Shown here: positions 2,294 to 28,553 of the stretch, piece after piece | How positions within the stretch are numbered: position 1 is the first letter of the stretch | How the letters are laid out: each line of letters begins with the position of its first letter | Origin: an uncultured Oscillospiraceae bacterium | GTDB lineage: Bacteria; Bacillota; Clostridia; Oscillospirales; Oscillospiraceae | Direction: 5' to 3' | DNA length: 36,344 nucleotides | NCBI GenBank assembly: GCA_934589145.1 | Contig: CAKTNW010000016.1 | Span: forward strand, 1 to 36,344 | Position numbers and translations under genes: made by a program | The notes under the pieces: generated by a model | The model's input: the letters and a program-made list of their open reading frames with translations, nothing else | Databases searched by the model: none | What the model was told of the DNA's origin: nothing

Positions 2294-2309
2294 GTTAGCA
2301 AGCGCTAAT
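2294..2309. promoter_or_regulatory. GTTAG-N6-CTAAT element before the ABC pair
   Basis: GTTAG, six bases, CTAAT, ending five bases before the AGGAGG ribosome site. A -10-like TATAAG (2289-2294) touches its left edge. The same element with the same spacing lies at 12683-12698 and 28538-28553. TTAG-N6-CTAA is also one of the half-site spacings inside the IdeR/DtxR iron-box consensus; that link is an inference. Confidence 0.5.
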
Positions 2310-2326
2310 CAAAAGGAGGAATCCAC

Positions 2327-4069
2327 ATGGAAAAGCAAAGCCCTGTCCAGCGGATCTGGGAGCTGGGCGCGGCGCAGCACGGCAGGCTGATCACGGCGGT
2401 GATCCTAGCCGTGGTGGGCGTGGTGTGCGGCATGGTGCCGTATTTCGCGGCGGCCAGGATCATTGCCCTGCTGCTGGCGGGAGAGCGGGCCCTGTCCGCC
2501 TATACCGTCTGGCTGCTGGCGGCGCTGGGTGGCTATCTGGCCCGGACGGTGCTGTATAACGGCGCACTGGGCCTGTCCCACAAGGCCACCTTCGACATTC
2601 TGAAGACCATCCGGCAGCGGCTGCTGGCCAAGCTGCCCCGGCTGCCCCTGGGCACGGTGATGGACACCTCCAGCGGCAAGCTGAAGCAGATCATCGTGGA
2701 TCAGGTGGACAGCATGGAGACCACCCTGGCCCACCTGTTCCCGGAGATGACGGCCAACATCGTGGCCCCGGTGCTGACGCTGGTGTATCTGTTCGTGCTG
2801 GACTGGCGGCTGGCGCTGCTGTCGCTGGCGGTGTTCCCCATCGCCTTCTTCTTCATGATGATGGTCATGGGCGGCTATGCCAAGGACTACGCCGGCGCGG
2901 TGCAGGCCACCAATGAGATGAGCGGCGCCATGATCGAGTACATCCACGGTATCGAGGTCATCAAGGCCTTCAACCAGGGCAAGAAGTCCTATACCCGCCT
3001 GGTGGACAAGGTGAAGGCCAACGCCCAGTACTACTTCGACTGGATGCGCCGCAGCCAGTTGGGCATGTCCATGGCCTACGCCTTCTTCCCGGCGCAGATG
3101 CTGACGGTGCTGCCTCTGGGCTGGGTGTTTTACAGCCACGGCACGCTGACCGTCGAGACCTTCATCACCGTGATCATCCTGTCCCTGGGCATGTCCGCCC
3201 CCGTTGTGGCGGCCTTCAACTTCGTGGATACCCTGGCCCAGGTGGGCACCACCGTGGCCCAGGTGGACGAGATCCTGAAGGCCGAGGAGCAGCAGCACGC
3301 CGCGGCGCCCGTGACCTTCACCGGCCACGATATCCAGGTGCGGGATGTGTCCTTCGGCTACCATGACGACAAGGAGATCCTCCACCACGTCAGCCTGACC
3401 ATCCCCCAGGACGGCATGACCGCCCTGGTCGGCCCCTCCGGCAGCGGAAAGTCCACCCTGGCCAAGCTGATCGCGGGCTTCTGGGATGTGAAGAGCGGCG
3501 CCATCACCATGGGCGGCCACGATCTGAAGGACATCCCCCTGACCCAACTCTACGACCAGGTGGCCTTCGTGTCCCAGGAGAACTACCTGTTTGACGACAC
3601 CGTGCGGGAGAACATCCGCATGGGCCGCCGCACCGCCACCGATGCCGAGGTGGAGGCCGCCGCCCATGCCGCCGGATGCGACAGCTTCATCGGCGGCCTG
3701 GAGAAGGGCTATGACACCCTGGTGGGCGGCGGAGGCGCGCACCTGTCCGGCGGCGAGCGGCAGCGCATCGCCATCGCCCGGGCCATGCTGAAGGACGCGC
3801 CCGTCATCGTGCTGGACGAGGCCACCGCCTATATCGACCCGGAGAACGAGGCGGTGATCCAGCGGGCCGTGGCCCGGCTGGTGGCCCACAAGACGGTGAT
3901 CGTCATCGCCCACCGCCTGTCCACCATCACCGGCGCGGACAACATCGCCGTGGTGCGGGACGGACAGATCGCCGCCCAGGGCACCCACCAGCAGCTTCTG
4001 GAGAGCTGCCCGCTGTATCAGGAAATGTGGCAGGCCCATATGGGCGCAAAGGATGGTGAAACGGCATGA
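2327..4069 (+). CDS. ABC transporter, fused membrane/ATPase subunit (IrtA/YbtP-like half)
   Basis: 580-residue half-transporter: type-IV membrane domain at about 20-310 with roughly six helices, NBD at about 335-575. Walker A GPSGSGKST (369-377), Q-loop VSQENYLF, signature LSGGERQR (473 on), Walker B VIVLDEAT (493-500) and H-loop AHRLS are all canonical. The start follows AGGAGG. It overlaps the next subunit by ATGA, a sign of translational coupling and a heterodimer. The membrane-domain style (YIHGIEVIKAFNQGKKSY, FFMMMVMGGYA) recalls IrtA/YbtP siderophore importers, which have an exporter fold; drug export cannot be excluded. The GTTAG element just upstream fits metal-linked control, which is an inference. 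Confidence 0.88.
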   Translation: MEKQSPVQRIWELGAAQHGRLITAVILAVVGVVCGMVPYFAAARIIALLLAGERALSAYTVWLLAALGGYLARTVLYNGALGLSHKATFDILKTIRQRLLAKLPRLPLGTVMDTSSGKLKQIIVDQVDSMETTLAHLFPEMTANIVAPVLTLVYLFVLDWRLALLSLAVFPIAFFFMMMVMGGYAKDYAGAVQATNEMSGAMIEYIHGIEVIKAFNQGKKSYTRLVDKVKANAQYYFDWMRRSQLGMSMAYAFFPAQMLTVLPLGWVFYSHGTLTVETFITVIILSLGMSAPVVAAFNFVDTLAQVGTTVAQVDEILKAEEQQHAAAPVTFTGHDIQVRDVSFGYHDDKEILHHVSLTIPQDGMTALVGPSGSGKSTLAKLIAGFWDVKSGAITMGGHDLKDIPLTQLYDQVAFVSQENYLFDDTVRENIRMGRRTATDAEVEAAAHAAGCDSFIGGLEKGYDTLVGGGGAHLSGGERQRIAIARAMLKDAPVIVLDEATAYIDPENEAVIQRAVARLVAHKTVIVIAHRLSTITGADNIAVVRDGQIAAQGTHQQLLESCPLYQEMWQAHMGAKDGETA

Positions 4070-5796
4070 TCGAGACCTTCAAGAAGATCTGGCAGTTTGC
4101 CGGAGACGAGAGAAAGAATATCAACAAGTCTGTTTGGGTCAGCTTCCTGACCGCCGTTTTGCAGATGTTCCAGGTGGGCGCCATCTATCTGGTGGTGCGG
4201 GCCCTGACCCAGGGCGCGCAGGGCGGCCGGACGGCCTGGCTGGCGCTGATCTTCGAGCTGATCAGCATTTTCGGCAGCGCCGTTACCGCCAGCACCTCCA
4301 AGATGTACCAGACCCACGCGGGCTATTTCATGGCGGCTGACCGCCGCATCGCCATCGCCGACCGGATGAAGAGCGTGCCCATGGGCTTCTTCAACGCCAA
4401 CAGCCTGGGCCAGGTGTCCGGCGTGTGCACCACTGTGGTCAGCACCATTGAGACCATGGTGCCCATGGTGCTGGTGAACATCCTCAGCGGCCTGATCACC
4501 ACGGCGGTGTTCACCGTCGTGATCCTGGTATTCGACTGGCGCATCGGCCTTATTGCCCTGGGCGGCATTGCCCTGTATCTGCTGGTGGTGTCCGCCATGG
4601 AGAGAAAGTCCGCCGCCATCGCCGACGACACCCAGAAGTCCCAGACCGCCCTTATCGAGGCGGTGCTGGAGACGGTGCAGGGCATGAGCGTCATCAAATC
4701 CTTCAACCTGACCGGCAAGGGTGACAAGAAGCTGCAGGACGCCCTGGAGTATCACCGCCGCAGCAATCTGCAGGTGGAGCACGTCATGACCCCCTATACT
4801 GCCGCCCAGGAGGCGGTGCTGCAGATCACCGGTGTGGCCATGATGTTGGCCGCCGTGGCGCTGTGGATCGGCGGCAGCATGACGCTGGCCAACGCCCTGA
4901 TGACGCTGGTGGTGTCCTTCCTGGTGTTCAGCCAGGTGAAGCTGTTCGGCATGGGCGTGTCCATGCTGCGGCTGGCCGCCGCGGCCATCGACCGCACGGA
5001 GGAGACGGAGCGGATGCCCCGGATGGACGAGAACGGCAGGGCCGTCACCCCCGCCAGCCACGACATCGCCTTTGACCACGTCAGCTTTTCCTATGAGCAG
5101 AAGCCTATCCTCCGCGACGTCACCGTGACGCTGTCCGATAAAACCACCACCGCCATCGTCGGCCCCTCCGGCAGCGGCAAGACCACCCTCTGCAATCTGG
5201 TGGCCCGCTTCTGGGACGTGGACAGCGGCAGCGTGAGGATCGGCGGCACGGACGTGCGGGACTACACCCTGGCCTCGCTGATGGATCAGATCAGCATGGT
5301 GTTCCAGAACGTGTACCTCTTCGCCGACACCATCGAGAACAACATCAAGTTCGGCTGCCCCGACGCCACCCATGAGCAGGTGGTGGCCGCGGCGAAGAAG
5401 GCCTGCTGCGACGACTTCATTGAGGCGCTGCCCGATGGCTATCAGACCGTCATCGGCGAGGGCGGCGCGTCCCTGTCCGGCGGCGAGAAGCAGCGGATCT
5501 CCATCGCCCGGGCCATGCTGAAGGACGCCCCCATCATCATTCTGGATGAGGCCACCGCCAACGTGGATCCGGAGAATGAGGATCGCCTGCAGAAGGCCAT
5601 CGAGGCCCTGACCCACGAAAAGACCGTCATCATGATCGCCCACCGACTGAAGACCGTCCGGGGCGCGGATCAGATCCTGGTGCTGGACGGCGGCCGCATC
5701 GTCCAGCAGGGCAGACATGAGGAGCTGATCCGCCAGAGCGGCATCTATGCCGATTTCGTCACCGGCAAGCGGGAGACCACCGGCTGGAAGCTGTAA
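4066..5796 (+). CDS. ABC transporter, fused membrane/ATPase subunit (IrtB/YbtQ-like half)
   Basis: 576-residue partner of the preceding subunit. Membrane domain at about 20-310 (VPMGFFNANSLGQVSG intracellular loop, MSVIKSFNLTGKG), NBD at about 335-570. Walker A GPSGSGKTT (366-374), signature LSGGEKQR (470 on), Walker B IIILDEATANVDPE (490 on) and the H-loop histidine are intact, so both ATP sites of the dimer look catalytic. The start ATG overlaps the upstream stop codon. The MGFF-ANSLG-VSG loop is shared with YbtQ/IrtB-like proteins as I remember them. No substrate-binding protein or siderophore biosynthesis gene is nearby. A strong terminator follows at 5811-5842. Confidence 0.88.
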   Translation: MIETFKKIWQFAGDERKNINKSVWVSFLTAVLQMFQVGAIYLVVRALTQGAQGGRTAWLALIFELISIFGSAVTASTSKMYQTHAGYFMAADRRIAIADRMKSVPMGFFNANSLGQVSGVCTTVVSTIETMVPMVLVNILSGLITTAVFTVVILVFDWRIGLIALGGIALYLLVVSAMERKSAAIADDTQKSQTALIEAVLETVQGMSVIKSFNLTGKGDKKLQDALEYHRRSNLQVEHVMTPYTAAQEAVLQITGVAMMLAAVALWIGGSMTLANALMTLVVSFLVFSQVKLFGMGVSMLRLAAAAIDRTEETERMPRMDENGRAVTPASHDIAFDHVSFSYEQKPILRDVTVTLSDKTTTAIVGPSGSGKTTLCNLVARFWDVDSGSVRIGGTDVRDYTLASLMDQISMVFQNVYLFADTIENNIKFGCPDATHEQVVAAAKKACCDDFIEALPDGYQTVIGEGGASLSGGEKQRISIARAMLKDAPIIILDEATANVDPENEDRLQKAIEALTHEKTVIMIAHRLKTVRGADQILVLDGGRIVQQGRHEELIRQSGIYADFVTGKRETTGWKL

Positions 5797-5810
5797 AACC
5801 GCAGACGTAC

Positions 5811-5847: not shown

Positions 5848-6306
5848 TCATGCCGGATGGGTCAGGCGGCGCAGCAGGCATTTGCAGCCCTCCCGCACAT
5901 CCTGCCAGGTGGCTTCAAAGTCCCCGGTGTACCAGGGATCGGCCACGTCGCCGGGGCGGCCCGTGTAGTCCAGCAGCAGGTGGAGCTTTCCCTCCGGGGC
6001 GCCGCCGCAGATCCGCCGCATGTTCCGCAGATTGGCCTGATCCATGCCCACCAGCAGGTCATAGGCGTCGTAATCCTCCCGCGTCAGCTGCCGTGCCGCG
6101 TGTCCGCCGCAGGTGATGCCGTGCTCCGCCAGCTTCCGCCGGGCAGGTGGATAGACGGGGTTTCCAATCTCCTCCCTGCTGGTAGCGGCGGAGGCAATGA
6201 GGAATTCTGCCGTCAGACCGGCCTTTTTTACCAAGTCCTTCATCACGAATTCCGCCATAGGACTGCGGCAGATATTGCCGTGGCAAACGAATAAGATCTT
6301 TGTCAT
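5848..6306 (-). CDS. Low-molecular-weight protein-tyrosine phosphatase
   Basis: 152-residue cytosolic phosphatase of the LMW-PTP/arsenate reductase fold. The N-terminal P-loop VCHGNICRS supplies the nucleophile Cys8 and Arg14 (C-X5-R). The DPWYTGDF motif at about 123 supplies the general-acid Asp and the substrate-lining Tyr. Family members dephosphorylate phosphotyrosine proteins or act on low-molecular aryl phosphates. The length is normal and all key residues are present. The start ATG is preceded by AGGAGG. It lies downstream of the deformylase/ferredoxin pair on the same strand with an 18-base gap, so it is likely co-transcribed with them. The protein substrate is unknown. Confidence 0.93.
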   Translation of the reverse strand: MTKILFVCHGNICRSPMAEFVMKDLVKKAGLTAEFLIASAATSREEIGNPVYPPARRKLAEHGITCGGHAARQLTREDYDAYDLLVGMDQANLRNMRRICGGAPEGKLHLLLDYTGRPGDVADPWYTGDFEATWQDVREGCKCLLRRLTHPA

Positions 6307-6324
6307 GACCGTTTCCTCCTGATG

Positions 6325-7074
6325 TCACAGGGCCTCGAAATGATACCGGGGCTTGTCCAGGCTCTTTTTGCCGTACTCAATGGCTTCCGTGGGGCAATAG
6401 CAGATGCAGGCCATGCAGTGGGTGCAGCTGCCGCCCCAGACGGGCCGTCCGTTTTGCAGTGTGATGTTGTTGGTGGGGCAGCGGGCCGCGCACTGGCCGC
6501 AGCCCACGCAGGCGTCCGATACGGTGAAGGCGTCCGCCTTCACGAAGCAGGAATAGAAGATAGGATTCACCGGGCCGCTCATGAAGCGGTCATAGAGGTT
6601 ATCGCGGGTGGGCGGAAATGCTTTCCCCGCCGCGACGGCGGCAATGGCCTGGTCGATGCTCGGCTCTGCCCCGGCCACGATCTGCCGGGCCTCCTCCGTC
6701 TGGGGCGCGTTGAACATGGCGATGTAGTTCTCCGGCATGATGATCTGCGCCGTCCCCATGCAGGTCAGGTGCTTTTCCTGACAGAGTGCGCGGTTGTACT
6801 TGTCGGCGCTGCCGATCTCGCTGCCGCAGGTCATGACGAACCACGCCTGCTCTGCGCCGGTCAACGCCGTGCGCAGCAGCCAGTCCCGGACGATCCGGGG
6901 GATACGCCAGGCATAAGTGGGCGTGACGATGATAAGCCGCGCACCGGTCTCCACCGGGGCGGTGTCGCACGCTTTGATACGGTCGTTCATATCGCAGAGC
7001 GGCTCGTTCAGGGCGTCCGCCATGCGCCGGGCCACATATCTGCTGTTGCCGGTGCCGGAATAATACAGGATCAT
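6325..7074 (-). CDS. EFR1-family ferredoxin-flavodoxin protein
   Basis: 249-residue two-domain electron carrier. The N-terminal flavodoxin-like fold opens with YYSGTGNSRYVA, the FMN phosphate loop. The C-terminal ferredoxin domain carries two 4Fe-4S motifs: CVGCGQCAARCP (Cys 189, 192, 195, 199) and CTHCMACICYCP (Cys 217, 220, 223, 227). EFR1 proteins are common in anaerobic Firmicutes and are thought to shuttle low-potential electrons; the partner is unknown. The start ATG overlaps the upstream deformylase stop by four bases (7071-7074), implying translational coupling. A longer frame exists but belongs to the deformylase region. No signal peptide, so cytosolic. Confidence 0.9.
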   Translation of the reverse strand: MILYYSGTGNSRYVARRMADALNEPLCDMNDRIKACDTAPVETGARLIIVTPTYAWRIPRIVRDWLLRTALTGAEQAWFVMTCGSEIGSADKYNRALCQEKHLTCMGTAQIIMPENYIAMFNAPQTEEARQIVAGAEPSIDQAIAAVAAGKAFPPTRDNLYDRFMSGPVNPIFYSCFVKADAFTVSDACVGCGQCAARCPTNNITLQNGRPVWGGSCTHCMACICYCPTEAIEYGKKSLDKPRYHFEAL

Positions 7075-7481
7075 ATCAATACCCCCTCGCAGTGGTCGAT
7101 CTCGTGCTGGATGATCTCCGCCGTCCAGCCGGTAAAGGTCTTGCGTCGGGTCTGGAACTTCTCGTTCTGCCACTGCACCTTGATGGTTCGGAACCGCTTT
7201 ACCTTCCGGCGGCCGGTGAGAGACAGACAGCCCTCCTCGGCCTCATAGGGGCCGTCGCGCTTCACGATGACGGGGTTGAACATGACCTGATACTTCCCGT
7301 CGTCATCAAAGACGATGATGCGCTTGTTGACGCCGATCATGTTGGCGGCCATGCCCACGCAGCCCTCCCTGTGGGCGGCCAGCGTGTCCAGCAGATCCTG
7401 CGCCGTGCCGAGATCCTCCGCTGCGGCGGTCTCGGCCCTCTGCGACAGAAACGCCTCGTCTTTACAGATATCACGGATCAT
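7071..7481 (-). CDS. Short peptide deformylase-like protein
   Basis: 136-residue metallohydrolase that by family removes formyl from the initiator Met of nascent proteins. Motif II EGCLS (83-87) and motif III QHEIDH (125-130) provide the metal-binding Cys and two His plus the catalytic Glu. Motif I reads GMAANMIG, so the usual Gln after AA-x (oxyanion stabilising in E. coli PDF) is Met. I recall this variant from clostridial short PDFs, but activity is not assured. The protein lacks the C-terminal extension of about 30 residues of standard PDFs. The ATG at 7481 has GGGAGG upstream. It heads a coupled pair with the EFR1 gene and is divergent from the membrane protein gene. Confidence 0.87.
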   Translation of the reverse strand: MIRDICKDEAFLSQRAETAAAEDLGTAQDLLDTLAAHREGCVGMAANMIGVNKRIIVFDDDGKYQVMFNPVIVKRDGPYEAEEGCLSLTGRRKVKRFRTIKVQWQNEKFQTRRKTFTGWTAEIIQHEIDHCEGVLI

Positions 7482-11518: not shown

Positions 11519-11824
11519 TCAGATATACTGCGCCATAAACGCCGCAAGGGGCGGGATATCCTCCGCCCGCCAATAGCTGGCGCCATCCGCCGTCCGGTGC
11601 AGGAGCCGCTTGTTGAAAAGCTCCCGCCGCAGGGTGGCTGCGTCGTGGAAAAGCGTCCACTCGTCCAGCAGATCGTTGATCTCCTGCTGGGTGTACTGCC
11701 GTCCGGCCTCGATCTTCCCCGCCAGGTACCAGAGGGCCATCAGCTTCTTCTTGTGCTTGGCCGGAAGGGCGGTGAGCCGCCCGTTCGCGTCACAAAACGG
11801 CATCAACTGGGATAGCTCATTCAT
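11519..11824 (-). CDS. DUF2087 domain protein
   Basis: 101-residue protein matching the DUF2087 pattern from about residue 20: KHKKKLMALWYLAGKIE, then RQYTQQEINDLLDEWTLFHDAATLRRELFNKRLLHRTADGASYW. This is a winged-helix-like fold often fused to ArsR-type regulators; here it stands alone. A role as a small DNA-binding or partner protein is likely but unproven. ATG 11824 is taken as the start; a GTG at 11830 in the same frame is an alternative. Either overlaps the end of the TetR gene, implying translational coupling and a shared function. Confidence 0.85.
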   Translation of the reverse strand: MNELSQLMPFCDANGRLTALPAKHKKKLMALWYLAGKIEAGRQYTQQEINDLLDEWTLFHDAATLRRELFNKRLLHRTADGASYWRAEDIPPLAAFMAQYI

Positions 11825-12413
11825 TTTCACACCCCGCTTCTCCCGCTCTGGCCTTCACCAGCAGCATCATGGCCTGGAACTCGGTGGACAGCATCCGGCC
11901 CAGCTCCTCCTCGGAGAAATGGCAGACCCGCGTGGCGCACAGCGCGCCCACGCCGAAGGTATAGATCCACACGTTTTCAAACAGCAGCCTGGCGTCCGCC
12001 TTGCTCATGCCGTACTCCTCCCGGATCAGGGCGATGCAGGTCGCTGCCGTGGGGCCCAGTACGCCGAACACGTCATCAAAGCTGACGGCGTCCCGGTTCT
12101 CCTGCATAAAGAGGAGCTGATACAGCTTCGGCTCACGGACACCGAATAAGACCATCCGCATGCCCACCTGCTTGAACAGGGGCATGTCAGGCAGCTTCCG
12201 TGGGGCAAAGCTCTCGAACCGGCCCATGGCGGCGTCCCGCACTGCCTCCTGTACCTCCTTCATGCTGTTGAACACGGTGAAGATGGGGCGGGCCGAGCTG
12301 CCCAGGGCATCGCCCAGCTCCTTGGCGGTCAGTGCCTCGACGCCCTTCCGGGAGACCACGTCCAGCGCGGCCTGCACGATCTCCTCTTTTGTGAATTTCG
12401 GTTTCGGCGGCAT
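11817..12413 (-). CDS. TetR/AcrR-family regulator, paralogue 1
   Basis: 198-residue regulator. The HTH lies at about 8-55 (FTKEEIVQAALDVVSRKGVEALTAKELGDALGSSARPIFTVF). It is clearly related to the protein at 15655-16272: both begin with P-K-x-KFTKEE, both have LTAK, PIF and SM in the HTH region and a Y-x-LLF segment mid-protein. The C-terminal domain has Cys residues (GALCATRVCHF) whose role is unknown. Its promoter (12479-12507) and a palindrome downstream of the -10 box suggest autoregulation. It heads an operon with DUF2087 and perhaps the cupin. Confidence 0.88.
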   Translation of the reverse strand: MPPKPKFTKEEIVQAALDVVSRKGVEALTAKELGDALGSSARPIFTVFNSMKEVQEAVRDAAMGRFESFAPRKLPDMPLFKQVGMRMVLFGVREPKLYQLLFMQENRDAVSFDDVFGVLGPTAATCIALIREEYGMSKADARLLFENVWIYTFGVGALCATRVCHFSEEELGRMLSTEFQAMMLLVKARAGEAGCENE

Positions 12414-12442
12414 GGCGATCCTCCTTGCTATATGAAAATGCT

Positions 12443-12454
12443 CATTTTAAAATG
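12443..12454. promoter_or_regulatory. Perfect 12-bp palindrome, likely TetR operator
   Basis: CATTTTAAAATG lies between the minus-strand promoter and the TetR start codon. AAAATGC also occurs twice in the same direction here (from 12436 and from 12449). Position and symmetry suit autorepression. Confidence 0.5.
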
Positions 12455-12478: not shown

Positions 12479-12507
12479 ATTATAGTCCCGATTGCCGTAC
12501 CTGTCAA
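12479..12507 (-). promoter_or_regulatory. Promoter of TetR paralogue 1
   Basis: Minus strand TTGACA (12507-12502), 17-bp spacer, TATAAT (12484-12479): a full consensus promoter. Confidence 0.75.
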
Positions 12508-12578: not shown

Positions 12579-12607
12579 TTGCAAAACGAAAGCGCCAATG
12601 CTACAAT
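12579..12607 (+). promoter_or_regulatory. Promoter of the first ATC-hydrolase-like gene
   Basis: TTGCAA (12579-12584), 17-bp spacer, TACAAT (12602-12607). The block GCTACAATATGAC at the -10 matches GCTACGATATGAC at the second ATC locus (28459 on) in all but one base. Confidence 0.65.
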
Positions 12608-12622: not shown

Positions 12623-12669
12623 CCGGTCGTGAGGCCGGGCGGCATAGAGGCTGCCGAAGGGCGGCTTTT
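12623..12669 (+). terminator. Leader with two hairpins and alternative pairing (attenuator candidate)
   Basis: Hairpin 1: CCGGTC (12623-12628), loop GTGA, GGCCGG (12633-12638). Hairpin 2: GCTGCC (12650-12655), loop GAAG, GGCGGC (12660-12665), then TTTT, an intrinsic terminator. GCTGCC can instead pair with an identical GGCGGC upstream (12638-12643), which would abolish the terminator. The switch between forms could be set by a ligand, protein or translation. Confidence 0.55.
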
Positions 12670-15324: not shown

Positions 15325-15414
15325 AGTTGTCTCCTTTTGCGTGATAAGATCCCCGGCAGTGGGGCGGCGCACAGGCAGCGCGCCGCATCTGCCGCGGTAC
15401 CTTCCAAAATAGAA

Positions 15415-20143: not shown

Positions 20144-21790
20144 TTACCTCATCTGCGGCTTGATCTCGATCGTCCGGCCGCCCAGGCTCTCATAGACCCG
20201 GTGGGAGACGGAGAGAACGGTGCGCCCCTGAGAGGCTTGCCGCAGGGCTTCCAGCACACGGGCCTCGGTCTCCGCATCCAGATTAGCGGTGATCTCGTCC
20301 AGCAGCAGCACGGCGGGATCTGCCGCCGCGGCACGGGCGATGGACAGAAGCTGCCACTCGCCCTGGGAGAACATGCCGTCGGTGCACACCGCAGCATAGC
20401 CCTCCGGCAGCGCCTGGATGGCCTCGTCGATCCCGGCCAGCCTGGCCGCGCTGCGGGCCATTTCGACCGTGATCCGGGGATCGTTCAGAGTGATCTGCTC
20501 CAGCACCGTTCCCGGCACGCGGGAGAAATGCTGCTCCACGCAGCCGATGCAGGCGCGCCGCGCCCCGTCCGGGATGGCGGCGGCGTCCACGCCGCCGATG
20601 GTGACCGTACCAGCCTGGGGCGGATAGAGCCCCAACAGCAGCTTGAACACGGTGCTTTTTCCCGCGCCTGTCCGGCCCACCAGCGTGACCTGCTCTCCCT
20701 GCTTTACGGTCAGGGAGAGATCCTTCAGCACCGGTTTTTCCCCATAGCCGAAGGTCACATGGGAGAGCACCACATCGCCCCGCGGGGCTGTTTCCGTCTC
20801 CGGGGGAACGGTGCGCTCCGGCTGGGCCAGGAACGCGTCGATCCGCTTGACGCCCGCCATGGCCGACTGGATGGTCTGGATCTCCATGCCGAGGCTTTCA
20901 ATGGGGGCGAAAATGCGGGAGATGTAGTTGATGACCGCCACCGAGGTGCCCACCGACATGCCGAACAGGGTCAGGATCTCCGCTTTGCCGGAGGCGGAGA
21001 GCAGCATGACGGCGCCCACCACAACGGCGTTCAGCAGCAGCACCACCGGCGAATAGACCGCGTCATAGAAGTTGGTGCGCTCCATGGCGGCATAGCTGTC
21101 GCCGATGCGCCGGTCATAGCGGCGCTCCATATAGGCTTCCAGCCCCAGCGCCCGGATGGTGCGGATATTGTGCAGCGTCTCCGGTACCTGGCCGGACACG
21201 GCGGCGACGGCGCGGCGGTTGTCCAGCTGCGCCGCCAGCATCCGCTTCTGCACATGGCGGGTGAACGCCGCGAACAGCGGCAGCACCAGCAGCAGGATCA
21301 GCGCCAGACCGGTGTTCTTCACGGCGATCACCGCCATGATGGAGATGATCCGGCAGGCGTCCGCCACCATGCTGATGATGCCGGAGGTGAACAGCGCCTC
21401 CACGGTGTCCACATCGCCGGAAAAGCGGGCGGCCACCTGGCCGGGATTCTGCCCCGCCAGCGTACCGGCGGGCAGCCGTGTCAGCTTCTGGGACATCTCC
21501 GAGCGCAGCGCGTGGGTCATCTTCTGGCCGAACAGCACCAGCAGGCTTTCCTGCGCCGAGGAGAGCACGCCCTCCAGCGCGAGACTGTCGAAGTACAGCA
21601 GCACCGCCAGAAGGGTCAGCGGGATGCCGGCGGTCAACCGGTCGATGACGCGCCCCAGCAGCAGCGGCGGCAGCAGCGACGCCGCCACCGATGCCGCCAC
21701 GCACAGAAGCGTCCCCACGGTCAGCAGATGGTGCGCCCTCGCCGCCATCCCGATGGCGGTGAACACGCCGTTTTTGCGTGCCTTCCTCAT
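20144..21790 (-). CDS. ABC exporter subunit with intact Walker B and degenerate signature
   Basis: 548-residue half-transporter: membrane domain at about 20-310, NBD at about 335-540. Walker A GRTGAGKST (372-380), Q-loop Gln in GCVEQHF, Walker B AVLLLDEITANLD with catalytic Glu (about 499), H-loop SHR. The signature is FSQGE (474-478) instead of LSGGQ. Its partner has the opposite defects, so the pair should form one consensus and one degenerate ATP site, as in heterodimeric exporters of the TM287/288 and BmrCD kind. The start overlaps the partner's stop by ATGA. The substrate is probably a drug or peptide. Confidence 0.88.
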   Translation of the reverse strand: MRKARKNGVFTAIGMAARAHHLLTVGTLLCVAASVAASLLPPLLLGRVIDRLTAGIPLTLLAVLLYFDSLALEGVLSSAQESLLVLFGQKMTHALRSEMSQKLTRLPAGTLAGQNPGQVAARFSGDVDTVEALFTSGIISMVADACRIISIMAVIAVKNTGLALILLLVLPLFAAFTRHVQKRMLAAQLDNRRAVAAVSGQVPETLHNIRTIRALGLEAYMERRYDRRIGDSYAAMERTNFYDAVYSPVVLLLNAVVVGAVMLLSASGKAEILTLFGMSVGTSVAVINYISRIFAPIESLGMEIQTIQSAMAGVKRIDAFLAQPERTVPPETETAPRGDVVLSHVTFGYGEKPVLKDLSLTVKQGEQVTLVGRTGAGKSTVFKLLLGLYPPQAGTVTIGGVDAAAIPDGARRACIGCVEQHFSRVPGTVLEQITLNDPRITVEMARSAARLAGIDEAIQALPEGYAAVCTDGMFSQGEWQLLSIARAAAADPAVLLLDEITANLDAETEARVLEALRQASQGRTVLSVSHRVYESLGGRTIEIKPQMR

Positions 21791-23517
21791 GCCTGCTCAC
21801 CTCCCGTTTGGCTTTCGTACAACTGGCGGTACACCGGCTCGGATGCCATCAGCGCCTCATGGGTGCCGACGGCGATCCTGCCGTCCTCCATGAAGATTAC
21901 CTGCCGCATCTGGGGGAAGTGATACAGCCGGTGGGAGATCAGGAACACCACCTTATCCTTGGCGTAGGTCTGTAAATTCGCAAATACGATATCCTCGGTA
22001 TTGCGATCCAGGGCGGAGAAGGGGTCGTCCAGCACCAGAACCGGCCGGGGATGGGCCAGCGTCCGGGCCAGTGCCAGACGCTGGGCCTGTCCGCCGGACA
22101 GGCGGGTGCCGCTGCTGCCGATGACGGTGTCGGCCCCGTTTTCCATGGCCTGTACCTCCGCCTCCAGCGCCGTCGCGGCCAGATACGGCGCGGCGTCCTG
22201 TTCGTCGCCGCACAGGACATTGCTCCGGATGGTGTCGGCGCTCAGCTCCGGGTCGTGGCCCAGATAGCCCACGGTGGCGGCGATCTGCCGGGATGTCAGG
22301 GCAGAGAACTCCTTCTGCCCGAATTTGGCCGAGCCGCCATAGGGCGCTTCGCACAGGAATACCCGCCCGAAGGTGGACTTGCCGCAGGCCACCGGCCCGG
22401 TGACGCCGATGATATCGCCGGGATGGGCCGTCAGCGTCAGGCCGGAGAACACCGGCTCGTCCCCATAGGCGAAGGACAGCTTGTCCAGCGTCACATCGGC
22501 AGGGGCCGGGATGGCCAGCGGCGCCAGCGCCTCCGGCGTTTTCATCAGCGGCTTGATACGCTTCCAGGAGACCTCTGCCTTCTGCACGGCGTTGAACAGC
22601 TTGGCCACCTTGGAGGATTTCACCGTCAGCTTGGTGAAGCAGGAGAGAAACGTGGTGAACGCCGCGATGTCCCAGGCGTTCCAGCCGGTGCCCAGCACGT
22701 TTTTCGCGCCGAACCACAGGATGAACAGCGTGCCCGCACCTGATACGGCCAGATACAGCGGCGGCAGGGCCGACTGCCACACATTGCTGCGCACGGCGGT
22801 TTTTTCGTAGGTATCCAGCGCGTCCTCATACCGCGCCTCACGGGCGCTCTCGCAGCCGTAGATGCGGTAGGTCACGGCGTTCTGGGCGCGGTCCAGCGTG
22901 GCCGCGCTGAGTGCGCCCGCCGCCTTCTTATAGGCGGCGCCTGCCCGCTGCACCGGCTTTTTCATCCACGCCGCGCAGAAGTAGGACACCGGCGTGAACA
23001 GCAGGCTCAACAGCGCCAGCCGCCAGTCGTACACCAGCAGCATCACGGCGTAACCGGCCAGGGCCACGCCGGTGTCGAAGATCTCGGTGGTGAATTTCCG
23101 CATGCCCTCCACGCAGTCGTCCACGTCGGAGATGGCCTTGGTCATCAGCTCGCCCGCGCCCTCCTGCTCCAGAGCGGCACGGCTCTGCCGCACCAGATTG
23201 GCGTACAGGATGCCCTTCATCCGGCGGTTGATATTGTTGGCAAAGCGGCGGACATAGAACCGCTTGATGAACCGGGCGGCCTGCACCAGCAACGTCACGG
23301 CGATATAGGCCAGCACCAGTATCACCATTCCGGCGGCGGTCTCATTGCCGCCCAGAATGTCGGCAAGGCACTGGGCCAGCCGTCCCTCGAACCACGGTGT
23401 GGCCAGCAGACCCACGTTGTAGATCAGCCCCGAGACCGTCACCAGCAGCAGCGACAGCCACTCTGCGCGGAAATAGGCGCCGATCCTGTCGGGGCGAAAG
23501 GTCTTGTCACGCTTCAT
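21787..23517 (-). CDS. ABC exporter subunit with degenerate Walker B and Q-loop
   Basis: 576-residue half-transporter and partner of the 20144 product. Membrane domain at about 18-310, NBD at about 340-575. Walker A GPVACGKST (374-382) and LSGGQAQR (473 on) are intact. Walker B reads VLVLDDPFSALD, with Asp in place of the catalytic Glu, and the Q-loop position is His (YLGHDPEL). The protein therefore lends its LSGGQ to the active site while its own site is weakened. ATG 23517 is used; it overlaps the MarR gene end by 11 bases. The preceding GTG at 23529 is too close to GGAGG to be the start. It is co-transcribed with MarR. Confidence 0.88.
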   Translation of the reverse strand: MKRDKTFRPDRIGAYFRAEWLSLLLVTVSGLIYNVGLLATPWFEGRLAQCLADILGGNETAAGMVILVLAYIAVTLLVQAARFIKRFYVRRFANNINRRMKGILYANLVRQSRAALEQEGAGELMTKAISDVDDCVEGMRKFTTEIFDTGVALAGYAVMLLVYDWRLALLSLLFTPVSYFCAAWMKKPVQRAGAAYKKAAGALSAATLDRAQNAVTYRIYGCESAREARYEDALDTYEKTAVRSNVWQSALPPLYLAVSGAGTLFILWFGAKNVLGTGWNAWDIAAFTTFLSCFTKLTVKSSKVAKLFNAVQKAEVSWKRIKPLMKTPEALAPLAIPAPADVTLDKLSFAYGDEPVFSGLTLTAHPGDIIGVTGPVACGKSTFGRVFLCEAPYGGSAKFGQKEFSALTSRQIAATVGYLGHDPELSADTIRSNVLCGDEQDAAPYLAATALEAEVQAMENGADTVIGSSGTRLSGGQAQRLALARTLAHPRPVLVLDDPFSALDRNTEDIVFANLQTYAKDKVVFLISHRLYHFPQMRQVIFMEDGRIAVGTHEALMASEPVYRQLYESQTGGEQA

Positions 23518-23983
23518 CGTCCGTGTCACCTCCTACCGGCTTTTGAAAGTGCGGAAAGCCCGCGCGGCTTTCCGTCTTGGATGCTGTGTACAGCTTGTCC
23601 AGCGCCGCCGCGAAGGTGGCCTCCTCCTCCGGGGTTAAGACGCTGGTCAGATACTCGTAAAAGGCCGCCTCGATCTCCGCCTTGGAGGCTTTCAGCCCCT
23701 CCGCTTTTTCTGTGGGGTACAGCAGCTGGCTGCGCCGGTCGTTGGGGGTGTCCTTGCGGACGAGATACCCCTTTGCCTCCAGATTCCTGGTTCGCCGGGC
23801 GATGGCGGCCTTGTCGGCGTGCAGAAGCTCCGCCAGCGCCGCTTGGGTGCAGCCGGGATTGTGGCGCAGCGCGTGGATCAGGTCGATCTCCGCCGTCCCC
23901 ACGTCCTTCTCCCGCAGCGTCCGCAGCACCAGCTTTTCCGCCTCCCGGGCGATTTTTGTGATCTTCCGTTCCGTAATATCCAT
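23507..23983 (-). CDS. MarR-family regulator
   Basis: 158-residue regulator with a central winged helix (CTQAALAELLHADKAAIARRTRNLEAKGYLVRKDTPNDRRSQLLYPTEKA, about 52-103). The DRR motif of the wing is intact. ATG 23983 has AGGAGGTG upstream; longer frames are unsupported. It heads the operon with the two ABC subunits, the standard layout for MarR-controlled multidrug exporters. A perfect palindrome GTTGTATATACAAC lies just after its -10 box, the expected autoregulatory operator. The inducing ligand is unknown. Confidence 0.92.
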   Translation of the reverse strand: MDITERKITKIAREAEKLVLRTLREKDVGTAEIDLIHALRHNPGCTQAALAELLHADKAAIARRTRNLEAKGYLVRKDTPNDRRSQLLYPTEKAEGLKASKAEIEAAFYEYLTSVLTPEEEATFAAALDKLYTASKTESRAGFPHFQKPVGGDTDDEA

Positions 23984-24311: not shown

Positions 24312-26252
24312 TTAGGCGCGGGGAAGGGTGATGTCGGCGCGGAACAGGTCGCCGTCGATGGACAGGGCAAACGTGCCGTTCATGAGACGCACCAGACTTC
24401 CGGCGATGGAAAGCCCAAGACCGCTGCCCTCGGTATGGCGGGAGGCGTCGCCCCGGACGAAGCGCTCCATCAGCTCGTCGGGGGAGATGTTCAGCTCGGC
24501 CCGGGAGACATTCTTGAAGCTGATGGTGACGGTCTCATCGTCACTGGCGGCCACGACGTAGACGCGGGTGTCCTCCAGGGCGTATTTGCAGATATTGCTG
24601 ACCAGATTGTCCATGACACGGCTGAGGAGCTTGCCGTCAGCCCGAACGGAGACGGGCGTCTCCGGCGGACGGGCCACCAGCGTCAGGCGGCAGTCGGCCA
24701 GCCGCTCCTGATACTCGCCCACGATCTGGTCGAACAGCACGGCCACATCCGTAGGCTGAAGCTCCACCGGCAGCGCGCCGGAGGACGCCTTGGACGCCTC
24801 CACCAGATCTTCCGTCAGCTTTTTCAGCCGGCGGCTCTGGCGATCCAGCACGGCGATATACTCCCGTGCCGTCTCCGGCTGGACATCCACCTTCTGCAGC
24901 AGATCCACATAGTTGATGATGGAGGTCAGGGGGGTCTTGATGTCGTGGGATACGTTGGTGATCAGCTCGGTCTTCATGCGCTCGGCCCTGGTCTGCTCCT
25001 GCACCGCCCGCTCCATGCCGGTGCGCAGGTCATTCATCCGCTGGCCGTAGCGCCTGAAGTCGCCGATCAGCGGCCTGGTGTCGATGCTCTGGGAGAGGTC
25101 GCCCTCCGCCAGCTTCTCGCCGCCCTTCTGCAGGATGCGCAGGTTCAGGGCGATGTACAGGATGGCGAGGAACTCCACCAGCTTCATCACTATAAAGATG
25201 CCGTCCACGGAGCCGTAGCCCGCCAGCACCAGAAGCATCTCGAGGAAGAACAGGCCCACCGTCACCAGCGCGGTTTTCCAGATCAGGGGCAGGCCCGCGA
25301 CGGTGCGGTACAGGCCCCGGCCCACGGCCCTGATGATGCGCCACACCAGCCGCAGTACCCGCGCGATCAGCGAGCCCCGCAGCAGCGTCCCCGCCTTGCA
25401 CTGGGCGCTGAACACGCACAGGAACAGCAGAAGGAAGGGCGCCAGCAGAGCGACAAAGACCAACTGTGTTTCCGTGTCATAGCGGAAGCTGTCCCAGCCG
25501 ATGAAGAAGGCGCATACCAGCGCCAGCAGCCACACGTCCGCCGGAATTTTGTCCAGCCATGTCAGGTGGATGCCCTCCCGACCCGTCCAGTGTCCGGCGG
25601 AAGCCATGGAAAAGCAGAAGCAGAACAGCACCAGCAGCAGAAACAGCGCCGTCAGGAACACTGTCAGTCCGGTGTGCTCCAGCAGCCACACGCCTAACAG
25701 ATAGGAATAGCTGGGGACATCATCCGTAGTCAGCAGGTCGGCGATGATGGTAAACTCCTCCGTGTGCCCATCGGCAAAGGAGAGCGAAAAAGTCTCCTGC
25801 GCGGAATACAGCGGCTTGTCGCTGTCCGTCAGCGCAAAGTTTTCAAAGGTGATCTCGCCGGTATCCTTGTTGGCAACCGCCAGATGGCAGGAGGTGTCCT
25901 CGCGGGGAAATCTTCCGGCGAATGCGCCGGGCAGGTCGTTTATTGCCTGCTGCAGCTCCCCGGAGGTGATATCTGCGCTGTGGGTAGTGCTGTTGTCCGT
26001 GCCGGACGTGTCGTCGGCCAGCGATTCCCCATTGGCCAGCAGGTCGCGCAGATAGTTGCGGGCGCTGTAAATGGCGTCTATGCACTGAGACTCGTACAGT
26101 GTCTGACGCAGGTGCGTACCGCCGTCCAGAAACGCGTCGTAGCTGGCGAGAATACCGACGCCGATACCGCTCAGCACCGTCAGCGCGAGGAATACCAGCG
26201 TCAGAAAGAAGGCCGTCAGCTTGGCCCAGGTCTTATCCAGAAGTCGCTTCAT
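24312..26252 (-). CDS. Membrane sensor histidine kinase
   Basis: 646-residue kinase. TM1 is at about 11-36, then an extracytoplasmic domain to about 183. Several further helices follow between 184 and 370 (near 190-215, 238-256, 263-283, 325-345 and 350-370). A short HAMP-like stretch (GEKLAEGDLSQSID) precedes the dimerisation helix with NVSHDIKTPLTS, whose His436 is phosphorylated. The ATPase N-box DNLVSNICKYA and G2-box GSGLGLSIA are intact. The unusually large membrane part suggests sensing in or at the membrane, perhaps envelope stress; the signal is unknown. The start overlaps the response regulator stop by ATGA. Confidence 0.92.
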   Translation of the reverse strand: MKRLLDKTWAKLTAFFLTLVFLALTVLSGIGVGILASYDAFLDGGTHLRQTLYESQCIDAIYSARNYLRDLLANGESLADDTSGTDNSTTHSADITSGELQQAINDLPGAFAGRFPREDTSCHLAVANKDTGEITFENFALTDSDKPLYSAQETFSLSFADGHTEEFTIIADLLTTDDVPSYSYLLGVWLLEHTGLTVFLTALFLLLVLFCFCFSMASAGHWTGREGIHLTWLDKIPADVWLLALVCAFFIGWDSFRYDTETQLVFVALLAPFLLLFLCVFSAQCKAGTLLRGSLIARVLRLVWRIIRAVGRGLYRTVAGLPLIWKTALVTVGLFFLEMLLVLAGYGSVDGIFIVMKLVEFLAILYIALNLRILQKGGEKLAEGDLSQSIDTRPLIGDFRRYGQRMNDLRTGMERAVQEQTRAERMKTELITNVSHDIKTPLTSIINYVDLLQKVDVQPETAREYIAVLDRQSRRLKKLTEDLVEASKASSGALPVELQPTDVAVLFDQIVGEYQERLADCRLTLVARPPETPVSVRADGKLLSRVMDNLVSNICKYALEDTRVYVVAASDDETVTISFKNVSRAELNISPDELMERFVRGDASRHTEGSGLGLSIAGSLVRLMNGTFALSIDGDLFRADITLPRA

Positions 26253-26944
26253 GTGAGAGTTCCCTCCATTTTATAGCCCTTGCCCCAGACCACCTTGATG
26301 TACCGGGGCTCTGAGGGGTTGATCTCCAGCTTTTCCCGCAAATGCCGGATGTGTACGGCGATGGCCCCTGTGGCGTTCAGCGGTACGTCTCCCCACACCC
26401 GGCGGTAGATCTCGCTGGGGGAGAACACCGTCCCTGCGTTCTGCATGAGAAAGCGGAGAATGTCGTATTCCTTTGGTGTCAGCGCCGCCGCTTCGCCGTC
26501 CACGGTGACGGTCTTGGCATTGTCGTCCAGACAGATGCCGCCGATGACCAGCGTGGATGGCCGCACCTGTCCGCCGCCCAACTGGAGATACCGCCGCAGT
26601 TGAGAGCGCACCCGCGCCAGCATCTCCACCGGGTTGAAGGGCTTGGTGATGTAATCGTCCGCGCCCACGTTCAGGCCCAGCACCTTGTCGGTGTCCTCGC
26701 CCTTGGCGGTCAGCAGGATCACGGGGACGTTGCTGGTCTGCCGCAGCTGGGCCATGGCGGTCAGGCCGTCCATGACCGGCATCATGATGTCCATGAGAAT
26801 GAGATGTACATCCTCGCGGGCGGCCACGGCCAGGGCCTCCTTGCCGTTATAGGCGGCCAGCACCCGGTAGCCCTCGGCCTTGAGATATATTTCCAGCGCG
26901 GAGACGATGTCCTTTTCGTCGTCAACGACTAAGATCGTATACAT
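26249..26944 (-). CDS. OmpR/PhoB-family response regulator
   Basis: 231-residue two-domain regulator. Receiver domain 1-120 with the acidic pocket DDE at 8-10, phospho-acceptor Asp52 (LILMDIMMP), Thr79 (LLTAKG) and Lys101 (ITKPF). The C-terminal winged helix runs from about 135 to 228 (LTPKEYDILRFLMQNAGTVFSPSEIYRRVW, AVHIRHLREKLE, YIKVVWGKGYKM). It is the partner of the overlapping kinase gene. GGAGGT precedes the ATG. It lies downstream of the glycosyltransferase on the same strand and also has a likely promoter of its own at 26982-27010. TTAAG direct repeats upstream of the glycosyltransferase are candidate target sites. Confidence 0.94.
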   Translation of the reverse strand: MYTILVVDDEKDIVSALEIYLKAEGYRVLAAYNGKEALAVAAREDVHLILMDIMMPVMDGLTAMAQLRQTSNVPVILLTAKGEDTDKVLGLNVGADDYITKPFNPVEMLARVRSQLRRYLQLGGGQVRPSTLVIGGICLDDNAKTVTVDGEAAALTPKEYDILRFLMQNAGTVFSPSEIYRRVWGDVPLNATGAIAVHIRHLREKLEINPSEPRYIKVVWGKGYKMEGTLT

Positions 26945-27010: not shown

Positions 27011-27012
27011 GG

Positions 27013-28269
27013 TCAATTCTTGGCGGCGGGGTAGGGAAGGGACGTCAGGTTCACGCTGTGGTGGATGGGCTTCCACTCCACCTTCATGAACAGCGCCGCC
27101 AGCGAGATGGGGAGATACGTCAGCATGAACAGCGGGAAGGTCAGCGTATAGGCGATCTTTTTCCACGCCGGGGCGTGGATGCGCCGCCATTCGCTGGCCA
27201 CGGTGATGCCGCCCAGTACCAGCAGCGTGGCCAGGATGCTGCCCATGCACTCCAGCAGCGACCGCATGGCGAACCACAGCCCGTCACCCTGCATCAGCCC
27301 CAGCACCGACAGCGTGATGTTGGCCAGCAGGCACAGCGCCGTCAGGATAAAGGCCGGCAGGATGGACATGGACATATCAAAGCAGCTCCAACTGCCCTTG
27401 GCGGTGCCCTTCAGCAGCGCCGCGCCGTACCGGCGGAACACCTGGATGTACCCCTTGGCCCAGCGCAGCCGCTGCCGCACCGACTGGCGGAAGCCGGTGG
27501 GCTGCTCGTCGTACAGCACCGCGTCCTCGCAGATGACGATCCTCTCGCCCCGCAGGATGTGGTAGATGGAGAACTCGATATCCTCGGTCAGCAGATAGAA
27601 GCGCCAGCCGTGGCTCTCGTCCAGGATCCGCTGGGAGAACAGGAAGCCTGTGCCGCCCACGGCGGCGCTGCTGCCCAGGCGGGTGCGGGCGCCGTTGAGA
27701 TAGCGGCTCTCCCGCAGGAACCACAGAGCGTAGCCCGCGCTGATCCAGTTGTCGCCGAAGTTCTTGCTGTTGCGGTAGCTGGTGACGATCTCGTGGCCGT
27801 GGGAGAACATTTCGTTCATCCGCTCTATGTAATCCGGGGCCAGCAGGTTGTCAGCGTCAAACACGAAATAGCCGTCAAAGCCCGCCGGATAGTCCGCGCC
27901 GATGTGCTGCAGCAGGAAGTCCAGGGCATAGCCCTTGCCCACGTTCAGCTGGTTGAACCGCTCATATACCACCGCGCCGTGGGCCCGGGCGATGGCGGCG
28001 GTGCGGTCGGTGCAGTTGTCCGCCGCCACGAACACCGTCACAAGGGACATGTCGTAGGTCTGCGCCCGGAGGCTCTCCAGCAGGCCGGAAATGACGTTCT
28101 CCTCGTTCCGGGCGGCGATCAGCACCGCGTAGCGGTGCTGCCTGGCAGGTGCGGCAAGGGCCTTCGGCTTTTTGGCCAGCACCAGGGGGATATAGAGGAA
28201 CTGATAGGTATAGCAGATAAAAAACAGCGCCGAGATAATGGCGTTGATGGTGCGCAGCGTGGTCTCCAT
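27013..28269 (-). CDS. Family-2 glycosyltransferase, membrane-bound
   Basis: 418-residue processive-type GT2. An N-terminal helix (about 8-31) precedes the catalytic domain: VLIAARNEENVI (nucleotide binding), DAD (138-140, metal site), TED (228-230, catalytic base) and QRLRW (266-270, acceptor site), the D,D,D,QxxRW set seen in cellulose-, hyaluronan- and poly-GlcNAc-type synthases. Three or so C-terminal helices (about 300-395) would form the translocation part. The product is not predictable; an envelope polysaccharide is likely. The start at 28269 has AAAGGATG upstream. It has its own promoter (28302-28330) flanked by TTAAG repeats, and the two-component genes follow on the same strand. 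Confidence 0.92.
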   Translation of the reverse strand: METTLRTINAIISALFFICYTYQFLYIPLVLAKKPKALAAPARQHRYAVLIAARNEENVISGLLESLRAQTYDMSLVTVFVAADNCTDRTAAIARAHGAVVYERFNQLNVGKGYALDFLLQHIGADYPAGFDGYFVFDADNLLAPDYIERMNEMFSHGHEIVTSYRNSKNFGDNWISAGYALWFLRESRYLNGARTRLGSSAAVGGTGFLFSQRILDESHGWRFYLLTEDIEFSIYHILRGERIVICEDAVLYDEQPTGFRQSVRQRLRWAKGYIQVFRRYGAALLKGTAKGSWSCFDMSMSILPAFILTALCLLANITLSVLGLMQGDGLWFAMRSLLECMGSILATLLVLGGITVASEWRRIHAPAWKKIAYTLTFPLFMLTYLPISLAALFMKVEWKPIHHSVNLTSLPYPAAKN

Positions 28270-28436: not shown

Positions 28437-28465
28437 TTGACAGCGAAAGTAAAATTTGCTACGAT
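28437..28465 (+). promoter_or_regulatory. Promoter of the ATC-hydrolase-like pair
   Basis: TTGACA (28437-28442), 17-bp spacer, TACGAT (28460-28465), inside a GCTACGATATGAC block shared with the promoter at 12602. Confidence 0.7.
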
Positions 28466-28503
28466 ATGACCGAAAAAACAGCGTGGTTTTTGTCGTTGAA
28501 GGA

Positions 28504-28524
28504 GCCGCGGAGACGCGGCTTTTC
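28504..28524 (+). terminator. Leader terminator with alternative pairing, ATC locus 2
   Basis: GCCGCG (28504-28509), loop GAGA, CGCGGC (28514-28519), then TTTTC. The upstream CGTGG (28482-28486) can pair with CCGCG (28505-28509), with a few weaker pairs extending it, which would break the terminator. It occupies the same place in the leader as the hairpin at 12650-12669. Confidence 0.6.
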
Positions 28525-28537
28525 TATACGACAGCGG

Positions 28538-28553
28538 GTTAGCCGACTCTAAC
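28538..28553. promoter_or_regulatory. GTTAG-N6-CTAAC element, ATC locus 2
   Basis: GTTAG (28538-28542), six bases, CTAAC (28549-28553), extended by one more pair to GGTTAG/CTAACC. It lies 14 bases after the leader terminator and just before the ribosome site AAAGGAG. As RNA it could form a six-pair stem; as DNA it is a repressor-sized dyad. Confidence 0.55.

Follow-up and report, generated by a model that had tools for sequence, protein, structure and literature searches.

What could a single short palindrome be doing in front of three separate operons? The question is raised by a stretch of 36,344 nucleotides (nt) from an uncultured Oscillospiraceae bacterium of the Clostridia (assembly GCA_934589145.1, contig CAKTNW010000016.1, positions 1 to 36,344 of the forward strand), called the window in what follows. 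There the dyad GTTAG-N6-CTAAY, where Y is C or T, precedes a pair of genes for ATP-binding cassette (ABC) transporter subunits and two units that encode three proteins of the ATC_hydrolase type, named A, B and C (Table 1). An initial annotation of this DNA had placed the three copies exactly where a pattern search finds them, with the same arms and spacing, and had proposed a regulon under a metal regulator akin to IdeR or DtxR. The account that we find best, with a probability of about 0.58, takes the dyad as the operator of one dimer of a DtxR/IdeR-type repressor which, at about a fifth of its sites, would gate elongation in a manner coupled to an RNA hairpin lying just upstream. What is new here is that hairpin, set at a fixed distance from the operator and repeated over many genes and two families.

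The dyad in the window and in related genomes

The whole window holds no fourth copy of the exact pattern, as had been judged by eye. Its core, TTAG-N6-CTAA, is found three times against a mean of 0.08 in shuffled sequences, none of 100 shuffles reaching three. Degenerate copies are near chance, since nine matches are seen when two mismatches are allowed, 5.4 being expected, and eight of 100 shuffles reach nine. Gaps of 17, 42 and 28 nt separate the dyads from the start codons of the ABC gene (2327), ATC-A (12741) and ATC-B (28582). None of their six-base centres (CAAGCG, ATAAGA and CCGACT) resembles a -10 element, and a -10 element inside dyads of the window type was rejected.

The idea of a regulon implied conservation in orthologous leaders and a frequency above chance, and both are found in relatives. 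A scan with the ABC protein returned 11 loci, six of them, at 48-82% identity, from Lachnospiraceae or similar metagenome-assembled genomes. The dyad occupies the same place 5' of the orthologous ABC gene in five loci (L001, L002, L003, L004 and L006), with differing central bases; L003 and L004 are near copies, and L005, where the match begins inside a longer open reading frame (ORF), was left unjudged. With the reversed dyad as control pattern, six whole genomes contain 1, 10, 8, 13, 17 and 10 dyads against 1, 0, 5, 5, 0 and 2 control matches. The 47 genomes from the genus of genome G001 hold 229 dyads against 45, the 299 genomes from the family of G003 hold 1766 against 552 (230 genomes above their control, 39 below, 30 equal), and the 146 from the family of G002 hold 420 against 167 (100 above, 22 below). 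The two large samples have no genome in common and were therefore taken as two families. That the dyad is a real element of a regulon thus appears well supported by comparison of genomes. The 552 control matches in 299 genomes would speak for chance recurrence of a short palindrome, and because of them some share of single sites must indeed be fortuitous. For the set as a whole chance is refuted by a threefold excess, by the five conserved leaders and by the shuffled windows, and we give it practically no weight.

A probable regulator of the DtxR family

Which protein would read the dyad? We mapped 32 stretches around sites of six genomes, part of the protein families being checked against Pfam and the rest named by eye. 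The dyad precedes feoB, FecCD permeases, a Znu-like system, ZIP transporters, units made of a TetR gene and an ABC pair, ECF units with ABC pairs, DUF3793 with flavodoxin, DUF2325 and DtxR-family genes; enolase and a histidine-phosphatase-family gene resembling phosphoglycerate mutase follow dyads as well. Judged by their annotation, the flavodoxin, feoB and FecCD targets would indicate iron, while the ZIP and Znu-like genes leave room for manganese or zinc.

For a comparison of regulator genes, genomes were called dyad-rich when they had at least 12 dyads and at most three control matches (24 genomes), and dyad-free when they had none (all 22 such genomes). Thirty DtxR-family loci were returned, 19 of them from dyad-rich genomes, and 13 of these 19 carry two to four dyads. 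Eleven of the 13 have the regulator gene head to head with feoB and the dyads between the two; one is in tandem and one is without feoB in the locus. At six of the 11 head-to-head loci a feoB-facing promoter, TTGACA-17-TATACT or -TAAACT, has its -10 element inside a dyad, and the same feoB promoter is present in L057, L064 and L067. The domain PF02742 occurs in 24 of 24 dyad-rich against 16 of 22 dyad-free genomes (Fisher p 0.008), which is by itself a weak test because those 16 carry it too. FUR-family matches are found in 21 of 24 dyad-rich and 19 of 22 dyad-free genomes.

The spacing of the core equals that of the one-dimer IdeR half site of Saccharopolyspora erythraea, with the proposed consensus TTAGGNNNNCCTAA in the available text of PMC8464063, as the initial annotation had supposed. 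Arms, six-base centre, family of the protein and iron-uptake targets are all alike in the two systems. In the present one, by contrast, the sites are single-dimer sites with a variable centre (the form that was searched for), and the predicted regulators are small: seven aligned DtxR-family proteins have 123-141 amino acids, and the NCBIfam MntR models match them best, though below cut-off. In the alignment a cysteine stands at the position of the glutamate ligand of MntR in 41 of 41 proteins fitting the extraction pattern, drawn from 46 loci, and aspartate or asparagine stands at the N-terminal ligand position in six of the seven. DtxR has a cysteine where MntR has this glutamate. Since the dyads precede feoB, FecCD, ZIP, ABC and flavodoxin genes, and since 11 of 19 DtxR loci have dyads between the regulator gene and a head-to-head feoB, the metal-regulator guess is well supported, and the dyads are predicted to be one-dimer operators of the DtxR/IdeR type. 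That such a protein binds them, and that iron is its metal, we infer.

A hairpin at a fixed distance from the dyad

Sites were oriented by a simple start-codon rule. The first set held 258 unique sites. A downstream start gave the orientation of 204, was absent at 51 and was ambiguous at three; after removal of upstream regions 80% alike 189 remained, sites from related genomes still being partly dependent. A hairpin was counted when its stem was closed by a G-C pair and reached -6 kcal/mol or lower, neighbouring dyads being masked, and as control each site was measured on its opposite flank, on the other strand. The rule of the G-C-closed stem was chosen after seeing data, and was kept unchanged in two later sets, apart from slightly more masking of neighbouring dyads.

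In the first set a hairpin ends 16-18 nt upstream of the dyad at 35 of 189 sites against 4 of 189 in the control, six shuffled sets giving 2, 5, 9, 3, 3 and 2. Counted by single distances, hairpins number 7, 23, 22 and 7 at 16, 17, 18 and 19 nt, and 0-3 at each distance elsewhere. Because the idea arose from part of the first data, the loci fetched afterwards weigh most, and they show 18 of 108 against 2 of 108. The family of G002 (92 unique sites, 63 oriented, 62 kept) gives 14 of 62 where the control has 1, and 17 nt is the commonest distance, with 11 hairpins. When the first set and this family are pooled, the hairpin is found at 49 of 251 non-redundant sites, about a fifth, against 5 of 251. 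At the 35 sites of the first set the distance varies by no more than 1-2 nt, against a span of 12-258 nt for the gap to the start codon. All three window sites belong to this class, with distances of 17, 17 and 18 nt.

Two classes of promoter arrangement

Promoters were sought as consensus matches, a local promoter being called from the 95th percentile of shuffles upward. Where no hairpin is present, a sigma70-like promoter with its -10 element near or inside the dyad is found at 59 of 154 first-set sites and at 10 of 48 in the family of G002. Hairpin sites differ: a local promoter is called at one of 35 and one of 14, and these 2 of 49 equal chance. The dyad lies within 45 nt of the start codon at 19 of 35 hairpin sites, so that there is hardly room for a promoter beyond it. 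Transcription is thus expected to enter from upstream and pass the hairpin; at the ABC locus its source would be the perfect promoter before the TetR gene. The same gene can display both arrangements: in L235, L246 and L247 a DUF2325 gene has one dyad at its promoter and another beyond a hairpin.

For the window, the initial annotation had seen a -10-like sequence touching the dyad at the ABC locus and had favoured a DNA operator there. An operator overlapping a promoter did not hold: that sequence, TATAAG, is part of no promoter above chance (86th percentile of shuffles), the scan of the + strand lists none at any of the three dyads, and all three sites fall in the class without a local promoter. 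With the local score at chance, the promoter-overlap model was rejected for the window sites. By consensus scans, the putative operator of these sites lies downstream of a promoter and has none of its own. A strong promoter, at the chosen score, precedes the hairpin in 11 of 35 cases, the ATC-B site of the window among them, and the ATC-A site has one too. Twelve units start with a TetR gene (six of these ORFs confirmed by Pfam, the rest recognised by eye; L003 is a near copy of L004). In ten of the 12, the window unit included, a TTGACA promoter directly precedes the ORF that comes before the dyad, and one of the other two (L054) probably has a mis-called start.

A proposed gate on elongation and its nearest relatives

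In the mechanism that we propose, the dyad would be bound by a compact metal repressor of the DtxR/IdeR family that most likely senses iron and has its gene elsewhere in the genome. At the many sites where the dyad overlaps a promoter, initiation would be blocked. At the hairpin sites, those of the window included, the metal-loaded repressor would block a polymerase that is already elongating, and hairpin and AU-rich tail would act on this same halted polymerase, favouring termination or prolonged pausing; under iron shortage the repressor would leave and transcription would read through. The ABC locus would thus have two inputs, TetR at the promoter and iron at an internal gate. With the repressor bound 72 to 715 base pairs beyond the promoter, an action on initiation is hardly possible. 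The distance between hairpin and dyad is about half the footprint of RNA polymerase.

The closest precedent is YtgR of Chlamydia trachomatis, which according to PMC6504234 promotes the termination of trpR transcripts at its operator ahead of trpBA in an iron-dependent way. A DtxR-like repressor, an operator inside a unit led by another repressor gene and an iron-dependent stop to read-through are common to both cases (PMC6504234 and PMC7755916, as far as their available text goes), and the order TetR gene, operator, ABC genes mirrors trpR, operator, trpBA. YtgR differs in acting at a single locus, whereas here a module recurs with a hairpin fixed at 17-18 nt; the words hairpin and terminator are absent from the main text of PMC6504234. 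Roadblocks by LacI, PurR, GalR, CcpA and CodY likewise involve a DNA-bound repressor that stops an elongating polymerase downstream of the promoter, but in the accessible parts of PMC10310618 and PMC4132739 no operator is coupled with an RNA hairpin at constant spacing. Neither this dyad in Clostridia nor an operator at a fixed distance from a hairpin is described in the open literature searched, which includes the available part of PMC9674144.

A broader formulation can be offered tentatively. Clostridia may possess a module made of an RNA hairpin, 17-18 nt, a DtxR-family operator and a start codon, in which an iron repressor, instead of guarding a promoter, would make a weak terminator or a pause complete; iron would gate read-through, the start being set by another signal (a TetR ligand at the ABC and ECF units, perhaps nothing at the ATC units), and the controlled ATC-like proteins and alpha/beta hydrolases could process imported thiazoline metallophores. 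Were the spacing to work in this way, repressor roadblocks and intrinsic terminators would not be separate devices, and the placement of hairpin and operator would constitute a switch after initiation, by which a promoter controlled in another way would gain a second input. The dyad itself provides a candidate operator for metal control in Clostridia, obtained from sequence alone, that can be scanned for in any genome of the group.

Other readings of the same sites

The simplest alternative would have plain DtxR-family operators everywhere, each repressing a weak or non-consensus local promoter, with the hairpins as insulating terminators and their constant distance a by-product of compact intergenic packing. 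It would account for the promoter overlap at 69 of 202 other sites, for the sequences TATAAG and TATAAC that precede the dyad at the ABC locus of the window and in L002, and for the 22 of 35 hairpins that have a co-directional ORF ending within 120 nt and could be the 3' end of that gene; the hairpin of the ABC locus starts 10 nt past the TetR stop codon. Yet 13 of the 35 hairpins follow no such ORF end within 120 nt, and at dyad 3 the upstream gene is a divergent glycosyltransferase (27013-28269, minus strand), so that no co-directional gene ends in this hairpin. With, in addition, a local promoter score at chance, strong promoters placed before the hairpin and a spacing far tighter than the gap to the start codon, we regard this alternative as unlikely. 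Quite improbable, in our view, is that another protein (of the FUR or TetR family, or of an unknown kind) binds the dyad and that the linkage to DtxR is indirect. The prevalence of FUR-family genes in dyad-rich genomes, a hairpin-type dyad at one such gene (L210) and the TetR genes adjoining many sites would favour it; still, three of the 24 dyad-rich genomes have no FUR match while none is without PF02742, five of the 12 TetR units have before the TetR gene an exact inverted repeat of their own, different in sequence, and the half-site spacing is that of IdeR (available text of PMC8464063).

Where a leader is of the hairpin type, the dyad might also work at the level of RNA: transcribed as GUUAG-N6-CUAAC, it could fold into a hairpin that a protein recognises or belong to an attenuator, and would then make up a single element with the hairpin upstream. 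Both hairpins do form when the leaders of the window are folded (z-scores -3.6, -2.4 and -2.8), their spacing is fixed, and an alternative pairing of GGCGGC with GCTGCC is possible in the ATC-A leader. Against this, no compensatory changes between the arms are seen in the orthologous leaders compared (in all other leaders the search pattern dictates the arms), other genes have this dyad overlapping their promoters, and Rfam gives no match at the gathering threshold in the window or in 18 loci, on which ground a riboswitch was rejected. We therefore consider an RNA element very improbable.

To be sure, the elongation gate by a DtxR-type repressor has its own difficulties, beside the 22 hairpins that follow an ORF. 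A first, looser measure of hairpins gave a blurred peak, with strong hairpins spread over 1-25 nt, because A-U pairs let stems extend into the T tract. The tails are poor: only 25 of 35 first-set hairpins have at least four T in the next 8 nt, the others having A runs, while in the family of G002 the tails are, by eye, broken mixtures of U and A. None of the three window hairpins, whose U-tracts are short (3-4 U), is listed by a standard terminator scan. Given the footprint of polymerase, the enzyme might come to rest at a simple roadblock with the hairpin still inside the exit channel. As to the regulator, no DtxR gene was found in the window, FUR-family proteins are as frequent in dyad-rich genomes as stated above, DtxR-family proteins exist in dyad-free ones, the cysteine ligand is present in both groups alike, and two or more dyad-free genomes (L085, L088) have ATTAG-N6-CTAAC at their DtxR/feoB locus.

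The transporter pair and the ATC-like proteins

The initial annotation had likened the ABC pair to siderophore importers. Among the 60 solved structures listed for subunit 1, the best bacterial one is YbtP, followed by IrtA and YbtQ, and YbtP and IrtA rank above Sav1866, MsbA and BmrA. The pair shares with YbtPQ and IrtAB the exporter fold of two half-transporters, but eukaryotic ABCB exporters score higher still against subunit 1. The likeness is therefore fair as regards the nearest listed bacterial structures, and the pair may be a siderophore importer.

Proteins A, B and C all exceed the Pfam cut-off for PF14196 (ATC_hydrolase), their activity being only predicted. Their inclusion in the regulon, also proposed by the annotation, fits the window, where dyads head A and B/C, and part of the relatives. 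In 38 ATC loci a dyad is present within 15, and heads the operon, by eye, in six (L044, L046, L050, L051, L119 and L123, the ATC gene of the last two lying 280-460 nt beyond the first gene); the remaining loci are not so headed, and PF14196 has no match in G003, G004 and G006. ATC genes as universal members were accordingly rejected. Since the dyad heads six of these 38 operons, its predicted control of ATC-like genes is a lineage trait. The leaders of ATC-A orthologues were unusable for footprinting because the orthologues are too remote: in the genomes available, those with leaders number 5 of 395 (31-40% identical) and 1 of 391 (36%), only the last having dyads nearby. In L258 (G066, a genome without FUR match) two dyads precede a remote relative.

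The operon partners of ATC genes vary, with leucine-carboxyl-methyltransferase-like proteins, other methyltransferases, alpha/beta hydrolases and DUF6796. L046 and L051 have a dyad, a leucine-carboxyl-methyltransferase-like gene (Pfam-checked in L051) and then an ATC-hydrolase-like gene, and P0104 is listed with PF14196 and PF04072 in a single predicted protein. The AlphaFold model of ATC-A is confident (pLDDT 88) and shows a weak likeness to the Bet3, H-NOX and XylR-type sensor folds (best E 0.0096). The Bet3 and H-NOX matches, as well as a PhlB-like match (E 0.37), are too weak for naming a function. Cys143, Cys162 and Cys191 are invariant in 46 ATC-like sequences and could be metal ligands. 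From the Pfam name and the YbtPQ-like partner one may guess that these enzymes act on imported metallophores by opening their thiazoline rings. The dyad would place PF14196 and the YbtPQ-like, TetR-linked ABC pairs, two orphan families, in a context of metal starvation.

Features of the window and further sites

Table 1. Features around the three dyads of the window, in order of position
Feature	Positions	Strand	Basis and remarks
Sigma70-type promoter TTGACA-17-TATAAT, 12/12 matches	1550-1578	+	Promoter scan; before TetR gene
Dyad TTCATAAC-GCA-GTTATGAA, in start region	1578-1596	+	Possibly the TetR protein's own operator (inferred function)
TetR-family regulator gene	1625-2248	+	PF00440
Hairpin GCTGCC-GGAAAC-GGAAGC	2259-2276	+	RNA folding, spacing measure; ends 17 nt before dyad 1
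Dyad 1, putative DtxR-family operator	2294-2309	none	GTTAGCAAGCGCTAAT; 5' of ABC gene
ABC transporter subunit 1	2327-4069	+	Domain search; transmembrane and ATPase domains
ABC transporter subunit 2	4066-5796	+	Domain search; transmembrane and ATPase domains
Second promoter match, 9/12, without TG	12425-12453	+	Promoter scan
Promoter-like TTGCAA-17-TACAAT with TG, 9/12	12579-12607	+	Promoter scan; before ATC-A
Hairpin GCTGCC-GAAG-GGCGGC, then TTTTC	12650-12665	+	Ends 17 nt before dyad 2
Dyad 2, putative DtxR-family operator	12683-12698	none	GTTAGATAAGACTAAC; 5' of ATC-A
ATC-hydrolase-like protein A	12741-13343	+	PF14196; AlphaFold pLDDT 88
Alpha/beta hydrolase (BAAT_C)	13451-14341	+	Probably a member of the ATC-A operon
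Promoter-like TTGACA-17-TACGAT with TG, 10/12	28437-28465	+	Promoter scan; before ATC-B
Hairpin GCCGCG-GAGA-CGCGGC, then TTTTC	28504-28519	+	Ends 18 nt before dyad 3
Dyad 3, putative DtxR-family operator	28538-28553	none	GTTAGCCGACTCTAAC; 5' of ATC-B
ATC-hydrolase-like protein B	28582-29241	+	PF14196
ATC-hydrolase-like protein C	29258-29884	+	PF14196; listed ORF opens at 29069, true start probably Met at 29258

Elsewhere in the window, a perfect TTGACA-17-TATAAT promoter (12479-12507, minus strand) points toward a divergent TetR-like gene (11817-12413), 72 nt from the ATC-A promoter. A small, cysteine-rich DUF6485 protein is encoded at 533-787 (plus strand), upstream of the TetR-ABC unit. Another pair of ABC half-transporters (21787-23529 and 20144-21790), near a two-component system (24312-26944), lies on the minus strand between 20144 and 26944, with no dyad.

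Some sites of the relatives deserve mention in their own right. Dyads stand 5' of enolase in L052, L072 (2321), L126, L129, L141 and L205 (421), the identity of enolase being Pfam-checked in L052 and L205 and judged by eye elsewhere; L052, at 5934-7352 and 14639-15530, also has a dyad before a phosphoglycerate-mutase-like gene, which, with the enolase sites, hints at metal control of lower glycolysis. In L062 (2373-3522) and L074 (905) a dyad is followed by DUF3793 (Pfam-checked in L062), with flavodoxin next in L062, an order that fits an iron-sparing response. The hairpin-type dyad of L210 (497) lies 29 nt before the FUR-family gene and may reflect cross-control between two metal regulators. 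That of L195 (499) lies 75 nt before a match to IMP dehydrogenase, an odd member for a metal regulon.

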